A stretch of DNA of 64,000 bases from contig JAUHYD010000010.1 of assembly GCA_030426665.1 (NCBI GenBank), positions 123,115 through 187,114 on the forward strand. The letters are read 5' to 3'. Position 1 is the stretch's first letter, and the number at the start of each line of letters is the position of its first letter. Under the pieces are notes generated by a model. That model did no database searches, was not told the origin of the DNA, and saw only the letters and a list, made by a program, of their open reading frames with translations. The DNA comes from Bacteroidia bacterium. Lineage in GTDB: Bacteria; Bacteroidota; Bacteroidia; Chitinophagales; Chitinophagaceae. Positions 45,534-64,000 of the stretch are shown piece after piece. A program made the position numbers and the translations under genes.

Positions 45534-48500
45534 ATGAAACGCCTTTATTTATATACTATTTTATCGGTGCTCTTTGCACTAAATAGCAACGCACAGATTT
45601 CTATTTCGCTGGCAACAGGAGGCTCTCCTGTTGTACCTGCAGGCTGGGTGCTTGGGGGCTCGGCAAGTGTTTCCGGCACGCACGTGCAGCTTACGCCGCC
45701 ATCGGGTGGCCAGGCAGGTCGGGTATACTATGGCACACCTCAAACTGTCGGCTCTTGCGGTGCATTCACTGTTGAGTTTGAATTTCAGGTTATTCCGAGC
45801 GGAGCATCATGGGCTATTGCCGACGGGCTTGCCTTCTGGATTGTAAACCCATTGAGTGGGTTTATCGGTGGGGGAGGAATCGGGATGCCGACAAACCCTA
45901 ATGGTTTGGTACTGATGCTGGACAATTACAACAACGACGGTGTTGCGAATGACCCATTGGTTTCGCTGCTCGGTTACCCCGCTGGATTTACCGGAACTTA
46001 TGTAGAAGGTTCAGCTACCAATCGTCTCGATGTAATGCCGAATCAATACTTTGTGTGGGACGGCGGATGGCACCACGTAAAGCTGACTTATGCAGGCGGA
46101 AATATAAAGGTTTATTTCAACCATAGTTCTATTCCGAATATGACCGGATTTTTCCCTTTAACGACTACCGGTTACTTCGGGTTTTGCGGCTCAACAGGTG
46201 GAGCATGGAGCACACAAAGCGTAAGAAACGTATACATATACTCTGATAACGTGAGTGAGATTTCCGGACCTGACGTTGTATGTATGGGCACGACGGCTAC
46301 GTTTACAGACTCAGCAGCTGGGGGTACGTGGAGCAGTAGTGCGACCGGGGTTGGTACAATTGATGCCACCTCCGGTGTATTTACTCCAATCTCTCCGGGC
46401 GTTACTACGCTTAATTATTCCTACACAGCTTCGACAGCAACATGTAGTGCCACTAAAACTGTTACAGTAAATGCAACAAGCCTATCGTCAAGCACTGGAT
46501 CATCTTCCATTTGCTCCAGTTCATTAGATACATTTACTAACAGTATATCAGGTGGTACATGGAGCTCAAGTGATACTCATATTGCGACTATTGGCAGTAC
46601 CACAGGTATTCTCGACCCAGACAGAGCGGGTACCGTCACGGTCACTTATACGCTCCCCTCCGGATGCACTACTGAAAGTACTGTGACTATTAACACTGCA
46701 CCTCCCGAATTGTCGATACTACCGTCCCCGGCTACGGTTTGCGATGACGACACTTTATCGCTGACGGCTATTAACGCTACGACATATAACCTTATCCCCC
46801 CCCAAAGTTGGGAACATGGAGTTCCAACAACATCGGGAATACCGGTAGATATGTGGAGTTACACCGGTTCTTCTCCGAGCTTCTGGTATCAGGTGGACGG
46901 AGCAACTGCCGCAACACCTTCCACGGGAGGATCTGCGTCAGGAACTTATATAGCAGATTTTAATTGCCGTAGTTTGTCTTCGGGAACTTCCGGGTATCTC
47001 ACGTCCCCATCCTTCAGTATGGTTGGCGTATCTTCCGCTACCCTGTCTTTGTGGGTTTATAGAGACGTATCGGCATACAATACAACCGCTTACAACTCTG
47101 AAGCGCTAACAGTTCAAATAACATCTTCTGTAGGAGGAACCGTAACTTTGGGAAGCATTCCCAGACGAGGAGGCGCACCTATTACCGGTTCCTTTAGTGG
47201 CACATCAACTACGGGCACATCGGGCTGGTTTCAGTACACCTGTGCAATACCGTCCGGTTTCACCAGTGCCAATAACCAAATATACATATCTGCTCTTAGC
47301 AGGAACGGAAACAACATTTACCTGGATAGTGTCACCATCACCGGAACAATAGGAGACCCTACATGGTCACCTTCTACTTGGCTTTACACAAACCCTGCGA
47401 CAACTACAGCCTACACCGGCTCAGCATTAAACCCCGTTTATATGCACCCGACGGGCATAACAACGCCTACAACTATAACTTATACCGCATCATTGACTAA
47501 TGGCACCTGCTCTTCAACAGGAACCAGCACAGTAACTATGAACCCAAACCCTGCAGCGATAACAGGACCGGGACTTACCTGCATCGGAGGCACGGTAACA
47601 CTGAGTAGTGCTACTTCCGGAGGCGTATGGACAAGCAGTACACCTTCAGTAGCATCTGTCGGCTCATCATCAGGTATTGTTACCGGTACGACTGCCGGAA
47701 CCTCAACCATTTGTTATGGGTTCGGAGGATGTACAACGTGCACGGTGGTTACGGTAGTCACTTCACCAGCAGCCAACTCCGGAATACCAATTGCGTGCCA
47801 GGGCTCCACAACAACACTTTCCAATTCCGTAGGCGGAGGTACCTGGAGTAGTTCCTATCCTGCCGTAGGTAGCGTAGATGCAGCAACCGGAGTAGTAACG
47901 GGCATCACCATAGGAACAACAATTATCACTTACGGAATTGCAACGTGTTATGCGACTACAATGGTCACTGTCAATCCTGTACCTGATACAATTACCGGAT
48001 CAGCAAGCCTGTGTATCGGAGCAACTACGGCTTTGTCCAGCGCCACTCCAGGTGGCTTGTGGACAAGTAGCAGTCCTGGCACCGCCTCAGTTGGCGTGTT
48101 ATCGGGTATAGTAACAGGAATGAGCGCAGGTACAGCTACAATCAGCTATCGTGTTGCAGGTTGCTCAGTCACAAAAGTTGTAACGGTAGTTACCGCGGCG
48201 ACACCGATAGTAGGACCTACGAGTATATGTGTAGGCTCAACAATGACACAAACTAACTCAACAAGTGGCGGCACATGGACCAGTAGCACACCATCAATTG
48301 CTACAATTGGTTCTTCATCCGGTATTGTTACCGGTGTCGCAACAGGAACTGCAACGATAACTTATGTTGTGAGTGCAGGTTGCACAACAACAAGGGTCAT
48401 TACGATAACCGCTGCACCACCTGCAATTACCGGGACTATGTCTATGTGTATAGGTGGCAGTACTACACTCAGCCACAGTACTATTGGCGGAACCTGGACA

Positions 48501-51500
48501 TCAAGTGCTACCGGCATAACAACCGTAGGGTTTGGTTCCGGAGTCGTAACAAGCGTGGGTGGTGCTGGAACCTCTACTATAACATATACGTTGCCCGGCG
48601 GCTGCATTACTACGGCTATCGTAACTGTAAATGCAGGACCGGCAGCGATTGCCGGCAGTGTTCCTTTTTGTGAGGGTGGTTCAATAACTCTGAGCAGTAC
48701 CACCTCCGGTGGTACCTGGAGCTCTTCCGCTCCCGGAGTTGCAACGGTCTCAAGTTCGGGAGTCGTTAGTGGATTAACTGCAGGTACCGCAACTATGTGC
48801 TATGCCGTTTCCGGATGTACTACCTGCACTGTTATTACGGTAAATCCACAGCCGGCAGCAATTTCAGGCGCATCCACTGTCTGCGTTGGAAGTGACATTG
48901 TACTTACAGATGCCACACCGCTAGGAACATGGAGCAGTTCTGACATCACCGTTGCAACTGTAACAAGTAGCGGTACTGTAACAGGTGCCGGTGCAGGTAC
49001 TGCCACTATCTCGTATGCATTACCTACTGGTTGCTTCGTCACAAAAACAATAACCGTGAATGCCAGCCCGGCCACTATCGCGGGAGGCACAGGACTTTGT
49101 GTAGGCACTACTACGTCGTTAACAAGCACCACACCAAGCGGGACCTGGAGCACCAGCGACCCATCCGTAGCAAGTATTTTAAGTCCGGGCCTGATTGGAG
49201 GTGTATCTCCCGGTACTGCAACCATATGCTATGCGGTTGCCGGATGCGCTACATGTGTTGTTGTTACTGTGTACGCAGTACCTTCGGCCATCAGTGGTGC
49301 TGACAATGTGTGCAGTGGGCAGAATATCACCTTGACTAACAGTGCTTCGGGCGGTGTATGGACAAGCAGCGCACCTTCTGTTGCATCAATCGACGCAGGT
49401 AGCGGACTGGTAACAGGTGGTATACCGGGCACAACAACAATTACATATTCTCTCGGTTTCGGCTGCGTGTCAACAAAAGTTATTACAGTAAATCCGCTAC
49501 CCGGATCGATTGGCGGGACGCTTGCGCTCTGTCAGGGCACTCCGACTACTTTGACCTGCACCCCTTCCGGCGGAATTTGGTTCAGCTCTGACGTGGCTGT
49601 AGCAACTGTAGGTGTAAGTACCGGAAACGTTACTACCGGCTCAACACCCGGAACCACAACAATATCTTACACATTGCCAACAGGATGTTATAGCACGGCT
49701 ATATTGACTGTCAACACACTGCCGGCTCCGATAACCGGAGTCACAAATATGTGTGTAGGGGCAAGTACCACATTAAGTACAACTACACCGGGTTGCACCT
49801 GGAGCTCCAGCAGCGGCAACGCTACCGTTGGATTTACAACCGGTGTAGTGACAGGAGTATTTACCGGCACCGCGACCATTACTACAGCAGTCCCCGGTAC
49901 GGGTTGCTCACGTAGCACTGTTGTACTTGTAAACGGATTACCAACAGGTATCGGTGGATCTCTGGAAATATGTGAAGGTGAAACGAGCTCACTTTCAGGA
50001 GCACCTTCGGGAGGAACATGGATGAGTGTTACTCCATCAACTGCCACCATTTCTGCCGGCTCAGGGATATTGAGCGGTCTTTCTGCCGGCACCACCGACA
50101 TCGTTTATACGCTTCCTACAACTTGTTCCAGAACAGTAACCGCAACTGTGAACCCATTGCCCAACCCAATAACGGGAACAGCAACTGTTTGTATGGGACA
50201 ATCAACAACACTGAGCAGTACTACGGGCGGTGGCACTTGGAGCAGCAGTACCACCTCTGTGGCAACTATCAGCAGTGGTGGTGTAGTAACAGGTGTAAAC
50301 GGAGGCTCCGGCTCTATGACTGCAACGATCACTTACACACTTCCTACAGGCTGCTATACAACACGGACAGTTACCGTATATAACCTGCCGGGAATAATCA
50401 CCGGAAACCCGAATGTGTGCGAAGGACTAACAACAACGTTAGGATGTACCCCGTCAGGTGGTACCTGGGCTACAAGTACGTCTTCTGTTGCTACAATAGG
50501 CTCTACAACAGGCATTGTAACCGGTGTATCTTCAACTGCACCGGGCACGGCAACTATCACTTATACAGTTGGCACAGGCTGCTACAATACAACGACAGTT
50601 ACCGTACATCCGCTGCCAAACACAATAACGGGCACCCCCACGACGTGTGTGGGTTCAACAACAACTTTAAGCAACGCTACTCCTTTCGGCACATGGAGTT
50701 CTGACGCCGCAGGTATCGCGTCAGTAGGTGCTGCAACAGGAATAGTGACAGGAAATAGTGCAGGGACTGCTACAATAAGTTACACGCTTGCTACTGGTTG
50801 CAGGACCACTCAGGTTGTAACAATCTATGCACTACCAGCGCCTATTACAGGCGTCTTGCAGGCTTGCGTTGGACTTACCACTCCGCTCAGCACAACAACA
50901 CCGGGAGGAACCTGGGTCAGCAGTGCACCCGCTAATGCTTCCGTTGATGCAACTACAGGCGTTGTGACAGGCGTAGCAGCAGGCACAACAGCTACAATAA
51001 CTTATTCGCTGGGTACAGGATGCTCAACCACTGCAGTCGTATCTGTTAATACGCCTCCCTTGCCGGTTACCGGTCCGGATGAAGTATGTGTCGGGCAAAC
51101 AATTACAATGAGTAATGCTTCGCCGTTCGGAACATGGAGTAATACGCCGCTGGCGATAGCAACAGTTAATCCGACAACAGGTGTAGTAACAGGAATTACT
51201 GCAGGCACAGCTTACATCAGCTACACAATCCCTACAGGATGCTATCAGGTAAAGATGGTTACCGTACATGCACTGCCAACTGCCATAACCGGACCAACAG
51301 AAGTTTGTGAACAATCTTCTGTGACGCTTAGCAGCACCCCGACAGGTGGATCCTGGGGAACAACAACGCCATCATTAGTGACAGTAAACCCAACTACGGG
51401 AAGCGTGTTCGGAGACAATGCCGGTGTTGCAACAATCGTTTACACCCAGGGCATTGGTTGTCAGACTTCCAGAACTATTACAGTCAATCCACAACCGGCA

Positions 51501-54500
51501 GCAATTACCGGAAACCTTGGAGTCTGTATTGGTTTCACAAGTCTGTTGGCAAATGCAAGTCCGGGCGGCACTTGGAGCAGCGGCACTCCCTCTGTCGGAA
51601 CTATTGACGGCTCTGGGTTAGTGACAAGTGTATCTGTTGGCACAACACCTGTTACTTACACGACACCAATGACAGGTTGTACAAGAGTCGCGGAGGTAAC
51701 TGTTAACCCTTTACCGGGTCCTGTAACGGGTAGCGACGGTTTCTGTAACCTGAGCTCTACAACTTATATGAGTTCACCGGCAGGCGGCACATGGAGCACT
51801 TCAAACGTAAGCGTACTGACTATCAATCCGACAACAGGCGTTGCCACTGGCGTAACAGTCGATACGGCCGATGTTATTTACACCTTGCCTACAGGCTGTA
51901 CTTCATCCAAAAGCGTATTCCTGATATTGGCACCCTACCCGATTACGGGCCCCGACAGACTGTGCGAAGGCCAAACCGATACTCTTAGGAACGCAGTGGG
52001 TGGCGGTGTATGGAGCAGTAGTAATACTGCCATCGTCCCGATAGATGTAATGACTGCAGAAGTAACCGGTCTTGTTCAGGGTACTGCCAACATCACTTAT
52101 GTCTTGTCGACAGGATGTGCTTCGGTACAGTACATGACCGTCAACCCTATTCCTGTAGGTATTACCGGCTCACGAGAAGTATGTGAGGGACTGACAACTA
52201 CTTTGTCAAATATCACTTCAGGGGGCACATGGAGCAGCTACAACACAGGTGTCGCAACCATAGGTTCACTATCAGGTGTTGTGACGGGCATTTCAGGCGG
52301 TGCTACCGGCGACACAACTACTGTAAGCTATTCACTGGGAACCGGCTGTAACGCAAAAACAATAGTAACTGTTAATCCACTACCTCCGGCCATAACCGGC
52401 ACCTTGCAAGTCTGTGAAGGCCTGTCAACAACGTTGTCCAACAGCTATTCAGGGGGCGTATGGAACAGTTCTAACCCTTCTGTTGCCGACATTAACGCAA
52501 GTACGGGGGTAATGACAGGATTGTATACGGGTACAGCATTGATCAGTTATACTTTACCTACGAGCTGCCTGATAACGCAGGAAGTCACCGTAAACCCGCT
52601 TCCGTCCGGAACCTCGGGACTGACGGATATATGTGTAGACGGAACAACAGTACTTACTAATGCTACGCCCGGCGGCACCTGGGAGAGCAGCGATACTGCA
52701 ATTGCTATCGTTGATGCATCCGGATTGGTTACTGGCAGATCCGCAGGAAACGTGGTAATATCCTATGTACTGCCTACAGGATGTATAGCAACCTGGCCGA
52801 TGACCATCAATGCAAACCCTGACCCGATTACCGGCTCATTGTCGGTATGTGCCGGCTTTGCAACAAATCTGTATAGCGGTCCGGCAGGTGGCACATGGAG
52901 CGCAGGTCCTTCAGGAGCTTCGTTTGGCTACATTAATCCGATTACCGGTGTTGTGAGTGGCATTATGGCCGGCAACATCCCAATCACCTACTCGCTTAGT
53001 TCGGGTTGTCTGGTAACGGACACAGTAACTGTCATAACATTACCTTCCGTCATAAGCGGCGTTCCGCGCGTATGTGTTAATGATACGACGGTCATGATCA
53101 ACTCTGCACCCGGCGGAGTATGGAGCATCAGCAATGCAAATGCAACAATCAATCCTGCCACAGGCGAAGTTGTCGGTGTAACGGCAGGAACATCAGTTGT
53201 CACCTATACGGTTGGCACCGGCTGTTTCAATGTTCATACAATTACCGTTAATCCGCTACCTGCAGTAATCACAGGCCCTTCACAAGTGTGCGAAAATGCA
53301 ACTATTATGCTATCGAGTGCCAGTTTGGGCGGCATTTGGTCGACAAGCTCCACGCCAATAGCTACTGTAGACTATATATCAGGTCTTGTCACAGGCGGTA
53401 TGGCTGGCACAGTCAATATTACATATTCATTCGGGGGAACCGGTTGTAAACGTGTTAAACCAATAACCGTAAACCAAACACCATACCCGATATTGGGCAA
53501 CCCACACATCTGTATAGGTTCCTCTAATACATTTACGGATACCCTTCCCGGAGGCATTTGGTACAGCGGCAACCCATCTGTGGCTAACATCAATCCGTCT
53601 ACAGGTCTTGCTGTTTCAGTGTCACTAGGCACAACCACTGTTAGCTATCGATTGCCGACAACAGGCTGTCAGGCTACAAGGCAGGTGACCGTACAGCCTC
53701 TGCCGGTTGTCTATGATGTACAAGCGATCGGCGATACCAGCTATTGCGCTGGCGGAGATGGCGTGGCTATTGGCTTGAGTGGCTCTCAACCCGGTGTCAG
53801 CTATGTACTGTATCATGGTAGTACAGCAACCGGCTATCGCTCCGGAACCGGTATGCCGATTAACTTCGGAATGCACACCGCCGCAGGAACATACAGTGTT
53901 CAGGCAACTAATGTAACAAGCGGCTGCATGAAGGATATGAACGGAAGCATCACAGTTGTCATCACACCTCTGGCTGCTCCCGGCGTATCTATTGCTGCGT
54001 CGCCTTACGACAGTCTATGCCCGGGAGAAAGTCTTGTAGTAAGTCCTGTTGCAGTAAATGGCGGTTCAGCGCCAACTTACCTATGGAAGGTGAATGGTGT
54101 TAATGTAAGTACCGCAACATCATATTCTTTTGTACCTGCACCGGACGATATTGTGACTGTGATAATGACAAGCGACGAAGAGTGTATATCGGCACCTACC
54201 GCAATTGCCAACAAGACTATCCGGGTGTTGCCATTCGAGACACCAATTGCAGGAATAGTGACAACACCGGACGATACTGTTTGCCAGTTTAACCCGACAA
54301 CATTTACAGCGGCACCTTCGTTTGGTGGTTCTCATCCTACGTACTACTGGAATGTGAACGGCGCAGCGGTTGGCACAGGCAGCAGTTATACGTATAACCC
54401 TGTTGATGGCGATATTGTTAACTGCAAAATGATTAGTAATTATCGTTGTCGCCTGTCAGATACAGTACTTAGTGGCAATGTTGTGATGAGCGTAGACTCG

Positions 54501-55055
54501 GTACTTATTCCTACTGTAGTGGTGTACCCTGAACCCGGATTTACAGTAGAAGACGGGAAGCCGGTAACATTGCACACAACTGTTACTAACGGGGGAGCAA
54601 ACCCCCAATATCAGTGGAAGGTAAACGGATACCCTGTTGCCGGCGCTACTGCCGACACCTATACCGCTGTATTTAACGACTATGATTCTGTAACATGCCA
54701 GATAGTTAGCAGTGGCGTATGCCATAATATCGGCACTTCAAATTGGGTATTTATTTCCGTAGCACCTACTGCTGTCGGGCAAACCGGTATCAACAGCAAT
54801 ATTGTTGTAACACCGAACCCGACAAAAGGAATGCTGACACTTACAGGAAACTGGGGCAATACTTCCACAGATCAGGTCAGCATAGAAGTAACAAATATGC
54901 TCGGCCAGATTGTTTACAGAAATATAATCAAGACACAGCAGGGCAAATTAGATGCGGTAATTACGCTGGACAATATGCTTGCAAACGGAATGTATATTCT
55001 GACGTTGAAAGGTGATGCAGCACAACAATCTTTCCACTTTGTACTGGAGCGGTAA
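45534..55055 (+). CDS. 3173 aa secreted protein: L-type-lectin-like N-terminus, about 30 Big2-like repeats, T9SS C-terminal sorting domain
   Basis: Signal peptide MKRLYLYTILSVLFALNSNAQ; AFTVEFEFQVIPSGASWAIADGLAFWIV...GLVLMLDNYNNDG lectin-like; repeats ITGxxxVCxGxTTTLSxxTxGGTWSSSxxxVATIxxxTGVVTGxxAGTATITYTLPTGC; C-term VVTPNPTKGMLTLTG...NGMYILTLKGDAAQQSFHFVLER. Confidence 0.93.
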   Translation: MKRLYLYTILSVLFALNSNAQISISLATGGSPVVPAGWVLGGSASVSGTHVQLTPPSGGQAGRVYYGTPQTVGSCGAFTVEFEFQVIPSGASWAIADGLAFWIVNPLSGFIGGGGIGMPTNPNGLVLMLDNYNNDGVANDPLVSLLGYPAGFTGTYVEGSATNRLDVMPNQYFVWDGGWHHVKLTYAGGNIKVYFNHSSIPNMTGFFPLTTTGYFGFCGSTGGAWSTQSVRNVYIYSDNVSEISGPDVVCMGTTATFTDSAAGGTWSSSATGVGTIDATSGVFTPISPGVTTLNYSYTASTATCSATKTVTVNATSLSSSTGSSSICSSSLDTFTNSISGGTWSSSDTHIATIGSTTGILDPDRAGTVTVTYTLPSGCTTESTVTINTAPPELSILPSPATVCDDDTLSLTAINATTYNLIPPQSWEHGVPTTSGIPVDMWSYTGSSPSFWYQVDGATAATPSTGGSASGTYIADFNCRSLSSGTSGYLTSPSFSMVGVSSATLSLWVYRDVSAYNTTAYNSEALTVQITSSVGGTVTLGSIPRRGGAPITGSFSGTSTTGTSGWFQYTCAIPSGFTSANNQIYISALSRNGNNIYLDSVTITGTIGDPTWSPSTWLYTNPATTTAYTGSALNPVYMHPTGITTPTTITYTASLTNGTCSSTGTSTVTMNPNPAAITGPGLTCIGGTVTLSSATSGGVWTSSTPSVASVGSSSGIVTGTTAGTSTICYGFGGCTTCTVVTVVTSPAANSGIPIACQGSTTTLSNSVGGGTWSSSYPAVGSVDAATGVVTGITIGTTIITYGIATCYATTMVTVNPVPDTITGSASLCIGATTALSSATPGGLWTSSSPGTASVGVLSGIVTGMSAGTATISYRVAGCSVTKVVTVVTAATPIVGPTSICVGSTMTQTNSTSGGTWTSSTPSIATIGSSSGIVTGVATGTATITYVVSAGCTTTRVITITAAPPAITGTMSMCIGGSTTLSHSTIGGTWTSSATGITTVGFGSGVVTSVGGAGTSTITYTLPGGCITTAIVTVNAGPAAIAGSVPFCEGGSITLSSTTSGGTWSSSAPGVATVSSSGVVSGLTAGTATMCYAVSGCTTCTVITVNPQPAAISGASTVCVGSDIVLTDATPLGTWSSSDITVATVTSSGTVTGAGAGTATISYALPTGCFVTKTITVNASPATIAGGTGLCVGTTTSLTSTTPSGTWSTSDPSVASILSPGLIGGVSPGTATICYAVAGCATCVVVTVYAVPSAISGADNVCSGQNITLTNSASGGVWTSSAPSVASIDAGSGLVTGGIPGTTTITYSLGFGCVSTKVITVNPLPGSIGGTLALCQGTPTTLTCTPSGGIWFSSDVAVATVGVSTGNVTTGSTPGTTTISYTLPTGCYSTAILTVNTLPAPITGVTNMCVGASTTLSTTTPGCTWSSSSGNATVGFTTGVVTGVFTGTATITTAVPGTGCSRSTVVLVNGLPTGIGGSLEICEGETSSLSGAPSGGTWMSVTPSTATISAGSGILSGLSAGTTDIVYTLPTTCSRTVTATVNPLPNPITGTATVCMGQSTTLSSTTGGGTWSSSTTSVATISSGGVVTGVNGGSGSMTATITYTLPTGCYTTRTVTVYNLPGIITGNPNVCEGLTTTLGCTPSGGTWATSTSSVATIGSTTGIVTGVSSTAPGTATITYTVGTGCYNTTTVTVHPLPNTITGTPTTCVGSTTTLSNATPFGTWSSDAAGIASVGAATGIVTGNSAGTATISYTLATGCRTTQVVTIYALPAPITGVLQACVGLTTPLSTTTPGGTWVSSAPANASVDATTGVVTGVAAGTTATITYSLGTGCSTTAVVSVNTPPLPVTGPDEVCVGQTITMSNASPFGTWSNTPLAIATVNPTTGVVTGITAGTAYISYTIPTGCYQVKMVTVHALPTAITGPTEVCEQSSVTLSSTPTGGSWGTTTPSLVTVNPTTGSVFGDNAGVATIVYTQGIGCQTSRTITVNPQPAAITGNLGVCIGFTSLLANASPGGTWSSGTPSVGTIDGSGLVTSVSVGTTPVTYTTPMTGCTRVAEVTVNPLPGPVTGSDGFCNLSSTTYMSSPAGGTWSTSNVSVLTINPTTGVATGVTVDTADVIYTLPTGCTSSKSVFLILAPYPITGPDRLCEGQTDTLRNAVGGGVWSSSNTAIVPIDVMTAEVTGLVQGTANITYVLSTGCASVQYMTVNPIPVGITGSREVCEGLTTTLSNITSGGTWSSYNTGVATIGSLSGVVTGISGGATGDTTTVSYSLGTGCNAKTIVTVNPLPPAITGTLQVCEGLSTTLSNSYSGGVWNSSNPSVADINASTGVMTGLYTGTALISYTLPTSCLITQEVTVNPLPSGTSGLTDICVDGTTVLTNATPGGTWESSDTAIAIVDASGLVTGRSAGNVVISYVLPTGCIATWPMTINANPDPITGSLSVCAGFATNLYSGPAGGTWSAGPSGASFGYINPITGVVSGIMAGNIPITYSLSSGCLVTDTVTVITLPSVISGVPRVCVNDTTVMINSAPGGVWSISNANATINPATGEVVGVTAGTSVVTYTVGTGCFNVHTITVNPLPAVITGPSQVCENATIMLSSASLGGIWSTSSTPIATVDYISGLVTGGMAGTVNITYSFGGTGCKRVKPITVNQTPYPILGNPHICIGSSNTFTDTLPGGIWYSGNPSVANINPSTGLAVSVSLGTTTVSYRLPTTGCQATRQVTVQPLPVVYDVQAIGDTSYCAGGDGVAIGLSGSQPGVSYVLYHGSTATGYRSGTGMPINFGMHTAAGTYSVQATNVTSGCMKDMNGSITVVITPLAAPGVSIAASPYDSLCPGESLVVSPVAVNGGSAPTYLWKVNGVNVSTATSYSFVPAPDDIVTVIMTSDEECISAPTAIANKTIRVLPFETPIAGIVTTPDDTVCQFNPTTFTAAPSFGGSHPTYYWNVNGAAVGTGSSYTYNPVDGDIVNCKMISNYRCRLSDTVLSGNVVMSVDSVLIPTVVVYPEPGFTVEDGKPVTLHTTVTNGGANPQYQWKVNGYPVAGATADTYTAVFNDYDSVTCQIVSSGVCHNIGTSNWVFISVAPTAVGQTGINSNIVVTPNPTKGMLTLTGNWGNTSTDQVSIEVTNMLGQIVYRNIIKTQQGKLDAVITLDNMLANGMYILTLKGDAAQQSFHFVLER
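46252..53700 (+). repeat. Array of about 30 Big2-like repeats (about 70-80 aa each)
   Basis: Regular (I/V)TGxxxxCxG ... GG(T/V)WSSS ... GC motif counted by eye in the 3173 aa translation; interrupted once near 46.8-47.5 kb. Confidence 0.85.
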
Positions 55056-55083
55056 TTTCAACTAAATGTTACAATAAACTTCA

Positions 55084-55117
55084 AACGGGTTGCCAATCAC
55101 CGGCAACCCGTTTTTTT
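55084..55117 (+). terminator. Rho-independent terminator downstream of the 3173 aa gene
   Basis: aacgggttgcc-aatcac-cggcaacccgttttttt. Confidence 0.9.
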
Positions 55118-55293
55118 GTGCCAAAATACGGCAACTTTCCAACCCGGAAATACATAAAATGTCAATAAAATAATGTTATTTTGATAGTTGAACATATTAT
55201 TTACTATTTTGACAAAATAGAATGTCATAAATGGTAATGAACGTGTATTGGACAATACACCTAAAAGTTGTTTGCTATTTTAAACAAAATGGT

Positions 55294-57663
55294 ATGAAGA
55301 AAATATTATTTACACTTATTTGTTGCTGTTCTTTCCTCCTGAGTGATGCCCAAATTACCCTTATAGACCCGACCGCCGGCGGAGGGTTTGAGTCCGGTAC
55401 GTTTTTTGGGGCAAATGGATGGACACTGGTTGGCTTTGGCCCCAATCGGTGGGCAATAGGAAATGGCATTGTAAACACCGGCTTAAGAAGTGCATATATC
55501 GGTAACGCTTCAACCTTTGTTGGCACAGCTACTCCTGCAATAAATCACTTTTACAGTTCCGCACCTATAAACATTCCGGCAACTGCTTCTAACATTCTGT
55601 TATCATTCAGATATGCACAACCTGTGGTAGACTTTGGCAATGATTCATTTATAGTATCTATAGGTTTTGCTTCGGACCCGACACCAGTTTCGGGAAGCAC
55701 CATTCAGCCTATGTACAACAGAGTGTACACCAATACGGCTGCTGCCTACCCGGGCTTTGTTGAGGTAGGACCCATTGATTTGTCTGTTTACAACGGAACA
55801 TCAATTCGTGTTGTGTTTACCCATGTCAACAATGGCTCGGGAGCGCAAGGCATACCCGCAGTAGATAGTATATCACTGACGTATTGTAATATAGCCGGCG
55901 TAACCGGAACCAACATGGTATGCCCTACAGACACCGTACAGTTTGCATGTTCAGCATCAGGCGGCACCTGGAGTAGCTCCAATACCGCTGTTGCTACCGT
56001 TGATGCAACTTCAGGAATCGTCACAGGTGTTGCCACCGGCACTGCGTCTATATCGTATATTCTTGGCGGCTGTTTTTCAGTGAGAAATGTTACCGTTAAC
56101 CCGCAACCATCCGCAATTTTCGGCGATATTTCACTTTGTCTGGGCGACACTGCTACACTTTATGACACAACTGTAGGCGGAGTGTGGAGCAGTTCAGACG
56201 CTGCAACAGTGCCGGTGTCATCTACAGGTTTCATTACAGGGTCAACAGTTGGTACTGCTACTATTAGTTATCGCATGCCGGCCGCTTGCTGGTCGCTCGC
56301 AGAAGTTACAGTAAACCCCTTCCCGACTGCCTTTAATGTAACGGGTGGTGGCGTGGCATGTGCATCAGGTGCAGGTGTTCCGGTTGGTGTCGACAGCTCA
56401 GAACTGGGTGTCGATTACTCGATATCTGACGGCACATCTGTCGTTGCAACATCGTCCGGAACGGGCTTTCCGTTCGACATCAGTTCAATTTCCACTGCAG
56501 GATCGTACACCGTATCAGCAGCTAACGCTACATCCGGCTGTACCAGCGATATGACAGGCAGTGTTACAGTAACTATTGGGCCGGCAGTTGTTCCGGCAGT
56601 AACGATTACACCGCCTATTACGCTGGTGTGTACCGGCGGAAGTGGCACCTACACTGCTAACCCGGTTAACGAAGGCCCTACACCTTCCTATCAATGGTAT
56701 GTAAACGGTACTGCTACCGGCACAGGAACTTCGTATAGCTACGCTCCGGTGGCTGGTGATGTTGTCTCAGTAACACTTTATCCGGGTGGCATATGTGTAT
56801 CTCCTGACTCGGCAACGGGGAACCACACACCTATTATTACCGCTTATACAGCACCTTCAGTAACGAGTGCGGTGTCTCCCGGCAATCCATCATGTACAGG
56901 TGCTGTCGTAACGATGTCGGCGGTACCGATGTTTGGTGGTAGCGCACCCACTTATATCTGGACAAAGAACGGCATCAATGTCGCAACAGGCCCTACCTAC
57001 TCGTTCCTGCCTACAGGCGGCGATGTGGTATACTGCACCATGACCAGCAATTACTCGTGTCGAACCATAGATACCGCTGTTAGCCCCAATACGCTCATGG
57101 TAACAGAGGCCGGGTCTGCCGCACCTGATGTAACTGTGTCTGCTTTCCCAACCGGAAGCATCAGCTTAGGAGACATTGTATCGTTCACGGCAACTGTAAC
57201 AGGTGGAGCACCATCTGTATCGTACCAATGGATACTAAATGGCGTTGCAATACCGGGCGCAACTGCTGCAACACATTCTGATACTACCTTTACAGATGGG
57301 GATATCGTGACCTGCGAAGTGACAAATATGGACGCATGCGCTAAATCAACGCTTAAATCTGTTTTGCTGCCGGTACCCGCAACCGGCGTGAACGGAATAG
57401 TAAAACCGACTTCACTATTTAGCCTGGCGCCTAACCCCAACCGTGGAGACTTTACAGTAACAGGCAATGCAGCTACTACTTTGCCACTAACGCTGACTGT
57501 TACTAACATGGTCGGACAAACTGTTTATACACAAACAATAGCTCCACAAGCGGGCGCTATTAACCAGCGCATATCAATCGGCAACATGCCTGTGGGCATG
57601 TACTTGCTTAGTATCAAGTCTGACTCAGTTAATGAGCTGCATAGGTTTGTGTTAACTAATTAA
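55294..57663 (+). CDS. Secreted Ig/Big2-like protein with T9SS C-terminal sorting domain
   Basis: Likely start at the internal Met MKKILFTLICCCSFLLSDAQ (track start 55231 adds 21 residues). C-term FSLAPNPNRGDFTVTG...VGMYLLSIKSDSVNELHRFVLTN. Confidence 0.9.
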   Translation: MKKILFTLICCCSFLLSDAQITLIDPTAGGGFESGTFFGANGWTLVGFGPNRWAIGNGIVNTGLRSAYIGNASTFVGTATPAINHFYSSAPINIPATASNILLSFRYAQPVVDFGNDSFIVSIGFASDPTPVSGSTIQPMYNRVYTNTAAAYPGFVEVGPIDLSVYNGTSIRVVFTHVNNGSGAQGIPAVDSISLTYCNIAGVTGTNMVCPTDTVQFACSASGGTWSSSNTAVATVDATSGIVTGVATGTASISYILGGCFSVRNVTVNPQPSAIFGDISLCLGDTATLYDTTVGGVWSSSDAATVPVSSTGFITGSTVGTATISYRMPAACWSLAEVTVNPFPTAFNVTGGGVACASGAGVPVGVDSSELGVDYSISDGTSVVATSSGTGFPFDISSISTAGSYTVSAANATSGCTSDMTGSVTVTIGPAVVPAVTITPPITLVCTGGSGTYTANPVNEGPTPSYQWYVNGTATGTGTSYSYAPVAGDVVSVTLYPGGICVSPDSATGNHTPIITAYTAPSVTSAVSPGNPSCTGAVVTMSAVPMFGGSAPTYIWTKNGINVATGPTYSFLPTGGDVVYCTMTSNYSCRTIDTAVSPNTLMVTEAGSAAPDVTVSAFPTGSISLGDIVSFTATVTGGAPSVSYQWILNGVAIPGATAATHSDTTFTDGDIVTCEVTNMDACAKSTLKSVLLPVPATGVNGIVKPTSLFSLAPNPNRGDFTVTGNAATTLPLTLTVTNMVGQTVYTQTIAPQAGAINQRISIGNMPVGMYLLSIKSDSVNELHRFVLTN

Positions 57664-57883: not shown

Positions 57884-59332
57884 CTACACTTTTGCTTCAA
57901 TTTCTTTTTCAATATACTGAACTACCCAATCGGTATTTTCAAGCTCGAGGATTTGCCTGAGAATTTTCCCTTCAGCAATTAATGACAACTCATTTATTGT
58001 GTTTACAATTCTTTTTTTGCATGACTTTAGTTCGCCTACTGTCTTTTGGGAAACCTTAATATTTCTTTTCCAATCCCCAAAATATTTAATTCCTTCCAAT
58101 ACAGCATATAAAGACGGTAAAACTATTATTAAAAACATCAAAATAGGCAAAACCAATTTGATATATAAAGTAGAAGGATTCAAAATGTGTTTAAATTCTA
58201 AAAACTCCAATACAAACTTAAAAATTACAGCAACAAAAAATGCAACCTTGACAATACTTAGAAAAACGTGTATGACTTTTTCTTTTTGTTTAAACCTATG
58301 AATCCTTTTCTTTTCATGGTAAGCAACTTGCTCCTCTGCAAGACACCATAACATTCTTTTAGCGTTTTGAAAGCTATCAATTTTAGATATCGATTTCGCT
58401 AATTGCCTTTCTATTTCAAGTATTTTCCGAAAATTGATTGACACACTTTCGTCAGTAATATCAACTTTAGATAAAGGTGTAATTGGGATTTTTGCACTTT
58501 TAAACCATATCAAACTTCTCAAATACTCGGCCTCCCTTCTACTCTCTAAGAATCTATGCTTCCATTTGTTTGCGAAGAATACCAAAAGTACAAAAGAGAG
58601 CAACAGAAAAAATATTTCAAATATTGCAAAAACAAATTTTAATGAATGCAAAATATCATGTTCGTCATTTTGGCTTTCGTGAAAAAACAACAAAGCAGAG
58701 GCAAAACAAATTACTGCCAAAACACCGGTAACTAGCCCTGTAAGCCATATTGGCTCAAAGAATCGGTTTTTGAATTTTACCGCTTGAGTATCCAACTTTC
58801 TGAATAATTCATCAGCCTCATCTACTAACATATCCGTTCCCCTGACAGCATTAATAATGTGTACCTCCTTTCCTTGAGAACGAGCATATGCCACTATATC
58901 TCCGGTACCGCCTAAGCCCGCTGCTGGCTCTCCATCCCAAACGGCAAGAACTATATCAGATTCATCAACAATCTTTTTACCAACATCAAAGTAGGCTTCA
59001 TTTCTTTGTTCCTGATTTCGAGGAATGGCATCAGAATATACCTCATACCCTCCTGGATTACCAGTCAATAGCTTTTCAAATTCGCTACGTTCTGTCGCTC
59101 TTTTAAAGTCTTTTTTATACTCATTAATATCAAATGGAACCATTATTCTTAAAGGAGCCCCGATTTTTGATACTTCCTTTGCAAATATTGTATCTGCACC
59201 TGTAGCTAACGCTGTGATGCCCAACAAATTCTTATCAAACTCCTGAAAGTAGAGCAAACTAAAGTATATACTCTTACCAACTTCTGAGATATCAAATAAA
59301 TCCCTATGCCCGGTAATGCCAATCTTTAACAT
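57884..59332 (-). CDS. SLOG-like nucleotide-sensor domain fused to a multi-TM (SLATT-like) region
   Basis: N-term MLKIGITGHRDL...ALATGADTIFAKEV...VLAVWDGEPAAGLGGTGDIVAYARSQGKEVHIINA; then hydrophobic pairs LTGLVTGVLAVICFASALLFF / IFEIFFLLLSFVLLVFFA and a second pair near the C-term. Confidence 0.7.
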   Translation of the reverse strand: MLKIGITGHRDLFDISEVGKSIYFSLLYFQEFDKNLLGITALATGADTIFAKEVSKIGAPLRIMVPFDINEYKKDFKRATERSEFEKLLTGNPGGYEVYSDAIPRNQEQRNEAYFDVGKKIVDESDIVLAVWDGEPAAGLGGTGDIVAYARSQGKEVHIINAVRGTDMLVDEADELFRKLDTQAVKFKNRFFEPIWLTGLVTGVLAVICFASALLFFHESQNDEHDILHSLKFVFAIFEIFFLLLSFVLLVFFANKWKHRFLESRREAEYLRSLIWFKSAKIPITPLSKVDITDESVSINFRKILEIERQLAKSISKIDSFQNAKRMLWCLAEEQVAYHEKKRIHRFKQKEKVIHVFLSIVKVAFFVAVIFKFVLEFLEFKHILNPSTLYIKLVLPILMFLIIVLPSLYAVLEGIKYFGDWKRNIKVSQKTVGELKSCKKRIVNTINELSLIAEGKILRQILELENTDWVVQYIEKEIEAKV

Positions 59333-59397
59333 AACAGAGATGTTTTACAGTAAATGAACATAAATCAATACACAGATAATAATTTCTGTTATTAACA

Positions 59398-60546
59398 CTA
59401 ATACTTTGTTGCATTTTTCCAATAATGACGATACTCTGCTGCAAAATCCGAAAAAGCATCATCTTTACTGTCAGATGCTGAAAACTGCAAATACCAATCA
59501 TTATGTTTGAGAGACTTAAAGTACGGATTTATTCTAATAACCCCTCCTGAATCATTGGGATCATCTGTTGCGGCTATATCGCCATCAATCAATAACCCGA
59601 TTAATGGTGGAACATTATCTGCAAAACGAACTTCAACATTTTTATTTTTAAACATTGCCGTATCGTTCTGAATTATTGAAAGTACTCCACCTATAGAGTT
59701 TGCATATGATTGCATTCTTTTGTTAATATTCCTAACAACGAAGGAATCAGGGCTATTAGGGCTAAGTAATAACAGTCTTATTTTGACACCTCTTTCTAAG
59801 GCATCTCTCAAATACTCCCGATGAATCTCTATTGTCGTCCTTAAAGTAATACCAGATACAAAAATTTCTCGTTTTGCTTTCATATATAACTCAATAGGTG
59901 GAGTCATATTATACTTACCTTCCCATTTCCTTGCTTCTATGTCTGTAAATCCGGATAATTTAATGGCATCTACGAGCCGAATCCCCCTAGGGTTTGTCTT
60001 ATTTACAACAGAATAATCCCTCAATATTGGTATTCCCAAACTTATGAAAAGCACAATACTCAACACAGTATACGTTAGTAAAGAACCGTGTATTATCTTT
60101 TTAGTTTTTATTACTCGAGTAGAAAAGGGTGGTATCGGTAGGCCTTTTACATGATTTGCCAATTGTTCAAAATACTGCTCTCCTCTGTAAAGAAATGCAT
60201 CAAACCATTGAGATGTAGACAAGTAAAGTTGAAGCCCTTTTGACAAGGCAATATTTTCAACCCTAAACACTATTATTTTCTTTCTGAAATTAGAAGCGTT
60301 GTCAATTTCATTCCTCACATTATCTGAAGCGTTTGAGTGCTTTGTCAGAATTAATACCACTACATCCGACCTTTCAATCCCATGAATGATCTCCTCCGCG
60401 TATTTACTACCCGGAGGAATATCTCGTTTATCTATAAAACAATTGATCTCATTCTCTTCAAAATACTTAACTAATTGTTTCGCCAAAACCTCATCCTTTC
60501 TGGCATAGCTTACAAATACATTGATTATTTTCGGTACATCTTTCAT
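59398..60546 (-). CDS. TIR-domain protein with TM helix and C-terminal PLD-like region
   Basis: NVFVSYARKDEVLAKQLVKYFEENEINCFIDKRDIPPGSKYAEEIIHGIERSDVVVLILTKHSNAS (TIR); TM LLTYTVLSIVLFISLGIPIL; C-term IFVSGITLRTTIEIHREYLRDALERGVKIRLLLLSPNS. Alternative upstream start at 60570. Confidence 0.75.
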   Translation of the reverse strand: MKDVPKIINVFVSYARKDEVLAKQLVKYFEENEINCFIDKRDIPPGSKYAEEIIHGIERSDVVVLILTKHSNASDNVRNEIDNASNFRKKIIVFRVENIALSKGLQLYLSTSQWFDAFLYRGEQYFEQLANHVKGLPIPPFSTRVIKTKKIIHGSLLTYTVLSIVLFISLGIPILRDYSVVNKTNPRGIRLVDAIKLSGFTDIEARKWEGKYNMTPPIELYMKAKREIFVSGITLRTTIEIHREYLRDALERGVKIRLLLLSPNSPDSFVVRNINKRMQSYANSIGGVLSIIQNDTAMFKNKNVEVRFADNVPPLIGLLIDGDIAATDDPNDSGGVIRINPYFKSLKHNDWYLQFSASDSKDDAFSDFAAEYRHYWKNATKY

Positions 60547-60989
60547 AAGAAAAAACAAAAAAGTATACAAAATTCAGAAGTGCAATTTAATACATATTTT
60601 CATTATGCTTATGGTTGCACCTAAATTCTATTGCCGCTTTTTGGTCTTGGTTTGTAACAAGTTTCAATAGCAAACATTATGGCAACAGAAAATAGGTAGA
60701 GACACTAAACCTGAGTATTATTTAACAATTCTTCAATAGGCACTGAGATGGTTTATGTTAATCAGAAAAACCACAATTGGTGTAATTATACAAAAACAGC
60801 ATAAATATGACGTTTGATGTATTTTTCACCAAAGCAATTGATTAGAATAGATGAAAACACAAATACTTTCGTGTGCTATTATTCATTATATTTAATTCTG
60901 TTCATACCCCCATTATTAAATATGGATATGTGCTGGTGTTGTAGTTTCCTGTTGCCGGAACTTTTTTAAACCTGTTTTGTTATAACATC

Positions 60990-63900
60990 ATGAACTATTA
61001 CAAAATATTCTTAGCCTCCTCTTCTGAGCTCAAAGCAGAGAGAAACGAATTTGTAGCAGGTATTCACAATCTGAACAAAGACCTAAGGGAAAAAGGTGTA
61101 GCCTTAGAAGTGGAATGGTGGGAAGATGTAGATGATGCTTTCAATACAAGCTGCAAACAGGACGACTACAATGAGTACCTGAAACTGTGCCATTTTTTCG
61201 TGATGTTGATATGGACTAAAGTGGGTAAGTTTTCTAATATAGAATATGACCTTGCTCGCAGCCTGAATAATCAAAACAACTTGCCGAGAGTTTATGTGTA
61301 TGAAAAAACTACTCCCAAAGATGGTGTTACCGATACAGATAAATACAGTAAGCAGGCATTTATGGATAAGCTAATGCTTTCTGGTCACCAACAGTTCCCG
61401 ACACAATTTGAGAGTATGGACACCGTGATAGGAAAGTTTAAAGAAAATGTTAAGCGGCTCTTTGCTGACTCATACCAATTGCAGTTTCAGCATGCATCTA
61501 CCGCTATGTTACTTTCCCCAACGGGTGTGAGTAGTCCCGAAGAATTTATGGGACGAAAAGAAGAGCTAAATACCATAGCTAAAAGGCTGACCGAAGGGCA
61601 GCGGCTGATGCTGATAAATGCAGAGGGTGGAATTGGCAAAACAACACTTGCTGCCCGATACTGGAAGGACACAGAAACGAAGTATAAAAGCCATGCATGG
61701 TTGTATTGTGAGGAAGGAATCATGAATGCGCTAAAAAGCCTCGCACCCGGCATCGGTATTGACCTTGCTGTTTATGATACGGAGCACGAGCAACAACATG
61801 CTTTAAGAATTGCACTCAGCAAATTGCAAGATGGCTTTCTGCTGGTGCTGGACAATGCAAACGACCCGGACGATGTAATTGCATTTCGGGAAGCATTTGA
61901 AGGGTGGCAATGGCATGTATTAATTACCAGCCGTTGTAATGGAATACTCCCAAAGAACGAAGAATTGCCGATAGAACATTTGCCACCGGAGTTGGCTGCT
62001 GAGTTATTTACAAAGTACTATAATGAACCGGATAACCCTGCTTTCTCTTCGCTATTAAGCAGACTCTTAGAAGCCATCAGGTACAATACATTGCTGGTAG
62101 AGGTTTTTTCTAAAAACATGGCAGAAGCGAGCCAAATGGCATACGCACCGCTGAACATGAAAACGTTTCTGGAACTGCTGGAAAAAGAGGGACTACACTT
62201 AGCAAATAATAGTTTTGAGGTAAAGAGTGAATATGGCACAAAGCGCAAAGCTGCGACGACTGATGAAATACTGAATGTATTATATGACTTTACAAAACTA
62301 AAGGAAGCAGAAAGTACCGCACTACTGAACATAAGTCTGTTGCCAGCAGTACCCTATAGATTACCTTTTCTGATAAGCCTGTTTGCGACCGTGGAAACCG
62401 AAAGAGACTATAAGAACACAATAAAAGCACTTGTAAAAACCGGCTGGCTCAGTACATCAGAAGACACCTACAGGCTAAGCCCCGTGATACAAAAGCTATT
62501 GCTAAACAAACATGCCACAACGCTTGGCAGCGATGCCTTGCCACTACTCGGACGATTAAACACCAAGCTGGAAAATGACGCATATAATCTGCTACACATT
62601 TCTCTCGCTGATGCAAAACCCTATACTGAACTCGCAACTGAGCTATACAAATGCTTGCAGAAAGACCCGAATAAAGAGTTAGCGACCTACTTACTCTCCG
62701 TAGCTATCTATTACAAAGGTATTGGTGATTTGGTGGGCGAGAAGAAATGTCTCGAGTACTTTCAGGAGGTATGCAGGTCATTATGTGGCATAGACGTCAC
62801 GTCCTTATCATACAAATATGGGTTGGCGGTTTCGTATTGTAAATTAGGAGACGTATATCAAGCAAAAGGTGATTGGAACTTGGCTTTGGAAAATTATCAG
62901 GAATACAACAGATTGGAAAAGGAGGTTTCGGATAGCAGTCCTGATACTTTGGAATACAAATATGGGTTGGCGATTTCGTATGGAAAATTAGGAGGCGTAT
63001 ATGAAGCTAAAGGAGATTGGGACACGGCTTTGGAAAATTATCAGGAATACAACAGATTGGTAAAGGAGGTTTCGGCAAGCAGTCCTGATACTTTGGAATA
63101 CAAATATGGGTTGGCGATTTCGTATGAAAAATTAGGAGGCGTATATCATCAAGCTAAAGGTGATTGGGACACGGCTTTGGAAAATTATCAGGAATACAAC
63201 AGATTGGTAAAGGAGGTTTCGGCAAGCAGTCCTGATACATTAGCATACAAATATGTGTTGGCGATTTCGTATTCTAGATTAGGAGGCGTATTTGAAGCTA
63301 AAGGAGATTGGGACACGGCTTTGGAAAATTATCAGGAATGCAACAGATTGGAAAAGGAGGTTTCGGATAGCAGTCCTGATACTTTGGAATACAAAAATGG
63401 GTTGGCGATTTCGTATCAAAATTTAGGAAACGTATATGAAGCTAAAGGAAGTTGGGATATGGCTTTGGAAAATTATCAGAAATTCAACAGATTGGTAAAG
63501 GAGGTTTCGGCAAGCAGTCCTGATACATTAGCATACAAAAATGTGTTGGCGATTTCTTATTTAAAATTAGGAAACGTATATAAAGTTAAAGGAGATTGGG
63601 ACACGGCTTTGGAAAATTATCAGCAAGACTTAAAAATATCTAAAGACATTTCGGATAGCAGTCCTGATACTTTGGAATACAAAAATGGGTTGGCGATTTC
63701 TTATCAAAATTTAGGAGGCGTATATGAAGCTAAAGGAGATTGGGACACGGCTTTGGAAAATTATCAGGAATACAACAGATTAATAAAGGAGGTTTCGGCA
63801 AGCAGTCCTGATACATTAGCATACAAAAATGGGTTGGCGAGTTCTTATCAAAATTTAGGAGCCGTATATGAAACTAAAGGAGATTGGGACACGGCTTTGG

Positions 63901-64000
63901 AAAATTATCAGCAAGAATTAAAAATATCTAAAGACATTTCGGATAGCAGTCCTGATACTTTGGAATACAAAAATGGGTTGGCGATTTCTTATCAGAATTT
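60990..64000 (+). CDS. STAND-type NTPase with DUF4062-like N-terminus and TPR array, truncated by the window end
   Basis: ATG at 60990: MNYYKIFLASSSELKAERNEFVAGIHNLNKDLREKGVALEVEWWED...; FMGRKEELNTIAKRL; P-loop LINAEGGIGKTTLA; GFLLVLDNANDPDD; then TPRs. Open to base 64000, so missing from the track. Confidence 0.88.
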   Translation, partial: MNYYKIFLASSSELKAERNEFVAGIHNLNKDLREKGVALEVEWWEDVDDAFNTSCKQDDYNEYLKLCHFFVMLIWTKVGKFSNIEYDLARSLNNQNNLPRVYVYEKTTPKDGVTDTDKYSKQAFMDKLMLSGHQQFPTQFESMDTVIGKFKENVKRLFADSYQLQFQHASTAMLLSPTGVSSPEEFMGRKEELNTIAKRLTEGQRLMLINAEGGIGKTTLAARYWKDTETKYKSHAWLYCEEGIMNALKSLAPGIGIDLAVYDTEHEQQHALRIALSKLQDGFLLVLDNANDPDDVIAFREAFEGWQWHVLITSRCNGILPKNEELPIEHLPPELAAELFTKYYNEPDNPAFSSLLSRLLEAIRYNTLLVEVFSKNMAEASQMAYAPLNMKTFLELLEKEGLHLANNSFEVKSEYGTKRKAATTDEILNVLYDFTKLKEAESTALLNISLLPAVPYRLPFLISLFATVETERDYKNTIKALVKTGWLSTSEDTYRLSPVIQKLLLNKHATTLGSDALPLLGRLNTKLENDAYNLLHISLADAKPYTELATELYKCLQKDPNKELATYLLSVAIYYKGIGDLVGEKKCLEYFQEVCRSLCGIDVTSLSYKYGLAVSYCKLGDVYQAKGDWNLALENYQEYNRLEKEVSDSSPDTLEYKYGLAISYGKLGGVYEAKGDWDTALENYQEYNRLVKEVSASSPDTLEYKYGLAISYEKLGGVYHQAKGDWDTALENYQEYNRLVKEVSASSPDTLAYKYVLAISYSRLGGVFEAKGDWDTALENYQECNRLEKEVSDSSPDTLEYKNGLAISYQNLGNVYEAKGSWDMALENYQKFNRLVKEVSASSPDTLAYKNVLAISYLKLGNVYKVKGDWDTALENYQQDLKISKDISDSSPDTLEYKNGLAISYQNLGGVYEAKGDWDTALENYQEYNRLIKEVSASSPDTLAYKNGLASSYQNLGAVYETKGDWDTALENYQQELKISKDISDSSPDTLEYKNGLAISYQN
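62812..64000 (+). repeat. Near-identical TPR units of 48 codons (144 bp), 8 complete plus a partial
   Basis: YKYGLAISYGKLGGVYEAKGDWDTALENYQEYNRLVKEVSASSPDTLE repeated; ALENYQ anchor (TTG codon) at 62886, 63030, 63177, 63321 etc.; one unit has one extra codon (GVYHQAKGDW). Confidence 0.92.

Follow-up and report, generated by a model that had tools for sequence, protein, structure and literature searches.

Among the known systems most similar to the locus presented here are the Thoeris systems, in which TIR-made signals act on effectors encoded in the same operon (PMC12847820). In type I, the TIR signal 3′cADPR is received by a SLOG sensor, while in type II His-ADPR acts on a TM-macro effector and in type IV N7-cADPR on a caspase (PMC12847820; PMC11204291). 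For SLATT domains, a role as membrane effectors under the control of ADPr derivatives has been predicted, and TIR-SLATT neighbourhoods have been reported in phages (PMC9503650; PMC7159879). In addition, a preprint reports that the DUF4062 family consists of TIR-like NADases that act in defence against phages (PMC13174449).

The locus lies in a Bacteroidia bacterium, at the right end of the window, that is, of the whole 64,000-nucleotide stretch of DNA that was analysed. The window in turn forms the right-hand end of contig C10, in a draft genome of 4.6 Mb, and the contig stops exactly at window base 64000. An earlier note made from the sequence had recognized three adjacent genes here, and all three open reading frames were confirmed, the last one being open at the window end (Table 1). 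The AT-richness claimed for this end is borne out for the SLOG and TIR genes, with GC values of 0.32-0.35 across the two and 0.43-0.52 leftward. The TIR gene is situated 65 bp upstream of the gene for a SLOG-SLATT-SLATT protein (hereafter SLOG-SLATT2), on one strand, and the two genes thus form a probable operon. We propose, with confidence that is evenly balanced, that they constitute a two-gene Thoeris-like defence unit, and that the divergent STAND gene is an independent single-gene system.

Table 1. Features of the locus (window positions).
Feature	Position	Strand	Remarks
SLOG-SLATT-SLATT (SLOG-SLATT2) gene	57884..59332	-	482 aa; ORF, AlphaFold model, fold search, hydropathy, YpsA/DUF4231/SLATT_1 matches of relatives
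TIR/SLOG-SLATT2 intergenic gap	59333..59397	-	65 bp; same strand; probable operon
TIR-TM-PLD-like gene	59398..60570	-	390 aa; ORF, TIR_2 and weak PLDc_2 match, TM, no HKD motif
Divergent TIR/STAND intergenic region	60571..60989	.	about 420 bp; promoters for both genes presumed
DUF4062/TIR-like - NB-ARC - TPR (STAND) gene	60990..64000	+	cut by contig end; remainder probably C35:2-676

The SLOG-SLATT2 protein has its SLOG domain at residues 1-160, followed by two pairs of TM helices, placed by hydropathy at 191-258 and 351-418. The Pfam scan of this protein gave nothing above cut-off, SLOG included, and SLATT_3 was matched at E=0.2 only. The AlphaFold model, built from five sequences (mean pLDDT 71, about 85 over residues 1-160), presents a Rossmann-type domain and then long helical hairpins. 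In a Foldseek comparison with the PDB, DprA, ShosA, LOG proteins and the ThsA SLOG domain with 3′cADPR (7uxs) were found near the top, with probabilities of 0.99-1.0 but a best E of 2.7e-3 and weaker values for the others; as modelled, the likeness to the 3′cADPR-binding ThsA SLOG is one of fold level only. Among the relatives, the protein of genome G638 matches the YpsA SLOG domain (E=9e-6, just under the curated cut-off), DUF4231 and SLATT_1, all below cut-off, the one from Caballeronia matches DUF4231 and SLATT_1 above cut-off, and the others give weaker matches, with three relatives holding two SLATT_1 stretches apiece. From these matches, the TM pairs and the fold it follows that the protein joins a SLOG domain of the YpsA type to a pair of 2TM SLATT modules, which agrees with the SLOG-like sensor with SLATT-like TM helices described in the earlier note. 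Residues A43, G45, D47, D126, W132 and GGT141-143, among others, are invariant in the eight SLOG relatives compared. A search of viral contigs with this protein returned none.

In the TIR protein, whose likelier ATG lies 8 codons inside the 390-aa open reading frame, Pfam TIR_2 is matched at residues 18-137 with E=8e-24, and Glu88 (in SDNVRNEID) appears to occupy the position of the catalytic Glu of bacterial TIR NADases. A single TM segment was located at 158-189 by hydropathy, immediately preceded by RVIKTKK, which favours a cytoplasmic N-terminus and hence a C-terminal domain beyond the membrane. The TIR and TM parts of the label given by the earlier note therefore hold, while the PLD-like part is weak, since PLDc_2 is matched at E=0.027 (below cut-off), DrmC at E=0.008, and the HxKx4D (HKD) motif is absent. 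No full-length relatives of the protein were found, its C-terminus had no relatives in 299 genomes of the order or in plasmids, and the whole protein had none in viral contigs. Structure prediction from the single sequence was unusably poor (mean pLDDT 35) and was discarded.

Compared with known systems, the pair shows the general Thoeris arrangement, in that a TIR gene stands beside a same-strand gene for an effector with a nucleotide-binding domain, here of the SLOG fold. It resembles type I (ThsB TIR with ThsA SIR2-SLOG) in that the TIR gene adjoins a SLOG-sensor gene of common fold, but the window protein carries four TM helices in place of SIR2, which had no match in any of the three window proteins, and the window TIR bears a TM segment and a PLD-like domain; type I was rejected on the missing SIR2 NADase domain and the TM helices found instead. 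With type II (ThsB TIR with TM-macro ThsA) it shares a TIR protein and a membrane effector with a nucleotide-binding domain (PMC11204291). There, however, the sensor is a macro domain, while in the window it is an N-terminal SLOG domain with two 2TM modules, and as none of the three proteins matches a macro domain, this type was rejected as well. Likewise, type IV, which couples TIR to a caspase-like effector, was rejected, as the stretch from 57 kb to the end of the contig contains no caspase ORF and the SLOG domain is fused to TM helices. In the TIR-caspase-SLOG operons described below, the same SLOG family also keeps TIR company, yet as a separate gene. In regard to whole-protein models of ThsB and ThcB, only the TIR part of the window protein matches (ThcB4 with 50.7 bits, where the cut-off is 220; ThsB partial); a search on type III Thoeris and ThcB gave nothing relevant in the collection of papers covered, and comparison with type III is by the ThcB4 model only. 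Lacking SIR2, macro and caspase effectors, the pair belongs to no known Thoeris type; it is Thoeris-like in its logic and falls outside each typed definition that could be applied.

The pair is also close to the predicted nucleotide-centric SLOG/SLATT conflict systems and the Firmicutes-phage TIR-SLATT neighbourhoods (PMC9503650; PMC7159879), with which it shares sensor and effector domains and the proposed logic. A SLOG domain, a SLATT 2TM domain and a neighbouring enzyme predicted to make a nucleotide signal are all present. It differs from them in that a single protein unites SLOG with two SLATT modules, in its membrane-anchored TIR and in its place on a Bacteroidota chromosome. The parts and the logic are thus already predicted, and what is new is this putative variant of the module.

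Ten SLOG-SLATT2 relatives were compared, the window included, with one of them cut by a contig end and one frameshifted. A TIR or TIR-like neighbour was found in four of the ten (window, Neptunitalea, Caballeronia plasmid, G638), and in three of the four within the window's own clade. In Neptunitalea sp. Y10 the order is TPR, TIR-TM-carboxypeptidase-regulatory-like and SLOG-SLATT2, with gaps of 8 and 28 bp, so that the TIR and SLOG-SLATT2 genes follow each other as in the window, across the 28-bp gap. On the plasmid of Caballeronia sp. SBC2 the TIR gene is found 452 bp downstream of SLOG-SLATT2, and in G638 a DUF4062 gene is found 326 bp upstream. The G638 gene (L048:142-1350) is frameshifted near its C-terminus, and this copy may be decaying. 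The remaining six (four congeners, Paraglaciecola and RYN_297, the last on a contig of 7.8 kb) have no TIR or TIR-like neighbour, and SLOG-SLATT2 may therefore work by itself or have a distant partner. The tree unites the window, Neptunitalea, G638 and RYN_297 in one clade (96/97), and a second clade (100/100) holds the four solo congeners. Across the whole tree, which has long branches, TIR linkage did not cluster significantly (257 of 500 shuffles as low). In the congener G099 (L123:4154-8704), a TIR gene was observed beside a STAND-like NTPase gene about 11 kb from SLOG-SLATT2.

TIR_2 genes are rare in these replicons, with two in this genome, one in Neptunitalea and one on the Caballeronia plasmid. 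Assuming about 4000 genes per genome (an estimate) and 313 features on the plasmid, the chance of a TIR gene adjoining the SLOG gene is about 0.001, 0.0005 and 0.006, respectively. As the window was picked for its content, the independent evidence of linkage is that of the other three loci; furthermore, clustering of defence genes inflates this evidence and can by itself bring such genes together.

Evidence for the company of TIR and this SLOG family also comes from stand-alone proteins of about 160 aa with the same SLOG domain. These adjoin TIR genes, most with a caspase gene beside them, on plasmids of Rhizobium, Bacillus subtilis, Agrobacterium, Novosphingobium and Methylorubrum and in two Bacteroidota genomes; on two Streptomyces plasmids with gene tables and SLOG relatives, no TIR is annotated. 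The pattern points to a SLOG family that acts together with TIR enzymes and with differing effectors. The TIR-caspase-SLOG operons, some with a second TIR (L030, L031, L071, L034, L027:6170-7992, L049:2027-4938), are carried by plasmids of Alphaproteobacteria and Bacillus and by Bacteroidota, and resemble type IV Thoeris with an extra SLOG gene. A different set recurring in Bacteroidota (L121:2670-7633, L122:215-7936, L029:5178-8539) comprises a patatin, a TPR-S protein and a stand-alone SLATT gene, with SLOG on the TPR-S C-terminus or in a neighbour and a TIR or TIR-STAND gene in two of the three; perhaps it is another SLOG/SLATT system. Two congeners (L119:962-1923, L120:5035-6012) also encode SLATT-like proteins of about 155 aa that stand alone, close to STAND-like NTPase genes; they adjoin an uncharacterised protein of about 150-165 aa, with no Pfam match for the one searched.

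The third gene of the locus was described in the earlier note as a STAND NTPase with an N-terminal effector-like domain and a TPR sensor, and this description stands. Pfam matches NB-ARC (E=4e-8 in one scan and 1e-8 in another) and eight TPR_12 stretches, the TPR array being built of 144-bp units. The N-terminal 165 residues gave no direct match to DUF4062, but relatives with 31-37% identity do match it, and TIR_2 as well, in most cases below cut-off, and Glu85 is invariant; by way of these relatives the N-terminus is predicted to be a DUF4062/TIR-like domain. In this it would resemble the Swarozyc/DUF4062 NADases (PMC13174449), but NB-ARC and TPR replace the C-terminal portal-binding auxiliary (HTH/winged) domain, and a Swarozyc assignment was rejected.

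The earlier note had suggested extending the locus beyond 64 kb. Although the window ends where the contig does, the TPR array recurs elsewhere in the genome only at the start of contig C35, with 91% identity, where C35:2-676 encodes 224 further residues and then a stop, beyond which lie a desaturase, sucC and, at a greater distance, lepA (names assigned by eye from the translations). The STAND gene thus probably continues onto C35, and if the join of C10 and C35 is right, the island consists of three genes with housekeeping genes after it. Matches to STAND residues 1-470 were found in 11 of 150 genomes of the family (this one included), several over the DUF4062-like part only. Two of these loci, read in detail, have no adjoining TIR or SLOG gene, and among the SLOG-SLATT2 relatives examined, none but the window has the STAND gene for a neighbour. 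Together with its divergent orientation, this makes a separate single-gene system the better reading. The earlier note had left open a new composite or several systems in an island: the second half is favoured, and while the TIR and SLOG-TM unit does recur, all three genes occur together in none of the STAND or SLOG-SLATT2 relatives checked.

How the pair might act can be outlined as follows. The membrane-anchored TIR protein, as enzyme and sensor in one, would detect infection, perhaps via its C-terminal PLD-like domain, and convert NAD+ into a signal derived from ADP-ribose. In the second protein, which would combine signal sensor and membrane effector, the SLOG domain would bind this signal, after which the four TM helices of the two SLATT modules would come together and make the inner membrane permeable, so that the cell would die or be arrested before phages are released. 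The DUF4062-NB-ARC-TPR protein would meanwhile serve as an independent sensor and NADase at the shared site. The pair is thereby a plausible, putative cell-suicide defence against phage. In its favour are the tight same-strand spacing, the recurrence in Neptunitalea, Caballeronia and G638 despite the rarity of TIR_2 genes, and the fold kinship to ThsA SLOG together with the TIR genes beside the stand-alone relatives; against it are the six relatives of ten that have no TIR neighbour, the absence of significant clustering in the tree and of a full-length TIR-TM-PLD relative, and a likeness to ThsA that is limited to fold.

Alternatively, three unrelated systems, namely a solo SLOG-SLATT2, an NAD+-depleting TIR NADase and an NLR-like NADase, could have gathered at one variable chromosomal site. 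The solo genes of the four congeners, Paraglaciecola and RYN_297, the divergent STAND gene and the absence of the island from all ten congener desaturase sites agree with such a history. However, SLOG-SLATT2 has a TIR or DUF4062 gene next to it repeatedly, and on replicons that are distant from one another, and the spacing in the window and in Neptunitalea is tight and on the same strand, so we regard it as rather unlikely. A single composite, in which the DUF4062-NB-ARC-TPR sensor feeds the TIR/SLOG pair, would account for the common site, the head-to-head arrangement, the two TIR-type domains by one SLOG sensor and the DUF4062 partner in G638, but the STAND gene stands beside no other SLOG-SLATT2 gene and its checked relatives have neither TIR nor SLOG neighbours, and this seems very improbable to us.

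The roles within the pair might also be reversed, with a SLOG enzyme that makes or removes a nucleotide and in this way controls either its own TM part or the TIR protein, NAD+ depletion by TIR being the killing step. LOG-type SLOG domains are indeed glycosidases acting on AMP-containing substrates (PMC9503650), and the GGT motif is invariant among the relatives compared. The nearest functional precedent in TIR operons is, however, a SLOG sensor (ThsA; PMC11204291), and fusion to SLATT suits an effector better than an enzyme; we hold such a reversal to be quite unlikely. Lastly, envelope-stress or developmental signalling through the two membrane proteins could be considered. The screen with defence-system models proposed in the earlier note failed to place the SLOG-SLATT2 protein, as no curated defence model matches it. 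Nevertheless, the patchy distribution, with matches in 3 of 150 genomes of the family and 4 of 299 of the order, the AT-rich island, the recombinases beside relatives and the TIR and caspase company of the SLOG family make a role outside defence very unlikely in our view.

If the Thoeris-like reading of the pair is correct, it would couple the SLOG sensor of type I Thoeris to a membrane effector and would give the computational prediction that SLATT domains are nucleotide-gated pores a small system of two genes in which it can be tested. Membrane-spanning TIR proteins whose sensor domains can be exchanged would also emerge as a possible starting point of TIR signalling in bacteria. Extending this, one may speculate, at a low level of confidence, on a further Thoeris-like class of membrane-anchored TIR receptors. 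The domains that these carry on the far side of the membrane would be exchangeable (PLD-like in the window, carboxypeptidase-regulatory-like in Neptunitalea), and their nucleotide signal would act on a membrane effector of four helices that is gated by SLOG, the TIR protein being a bacterial transmembrane receptor that reads the envelope or periplasm.

In regard to the surroundings of the island, a promoter pattern scan of the TIR/STAND intergenic region was too permissive for any site to be named. Rfam and tRNA scans of the window gave no matches, so no tRNA-linked integration site lies within it. In the genus-wide empty-site comparison, the island was absent at all ten congener sites by the same desaturase, where gene order is too variable across the genus for an empty site to be defined. 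Immediately to the left of the island (window 45534-57663), two large secreted repeat proteins of 3173 and 810 aa are encoded, with Ig-like repeats and sorting-signal-like C-termini, and a hairpin-like palindrome follows the 810-aa protein at about 57690.
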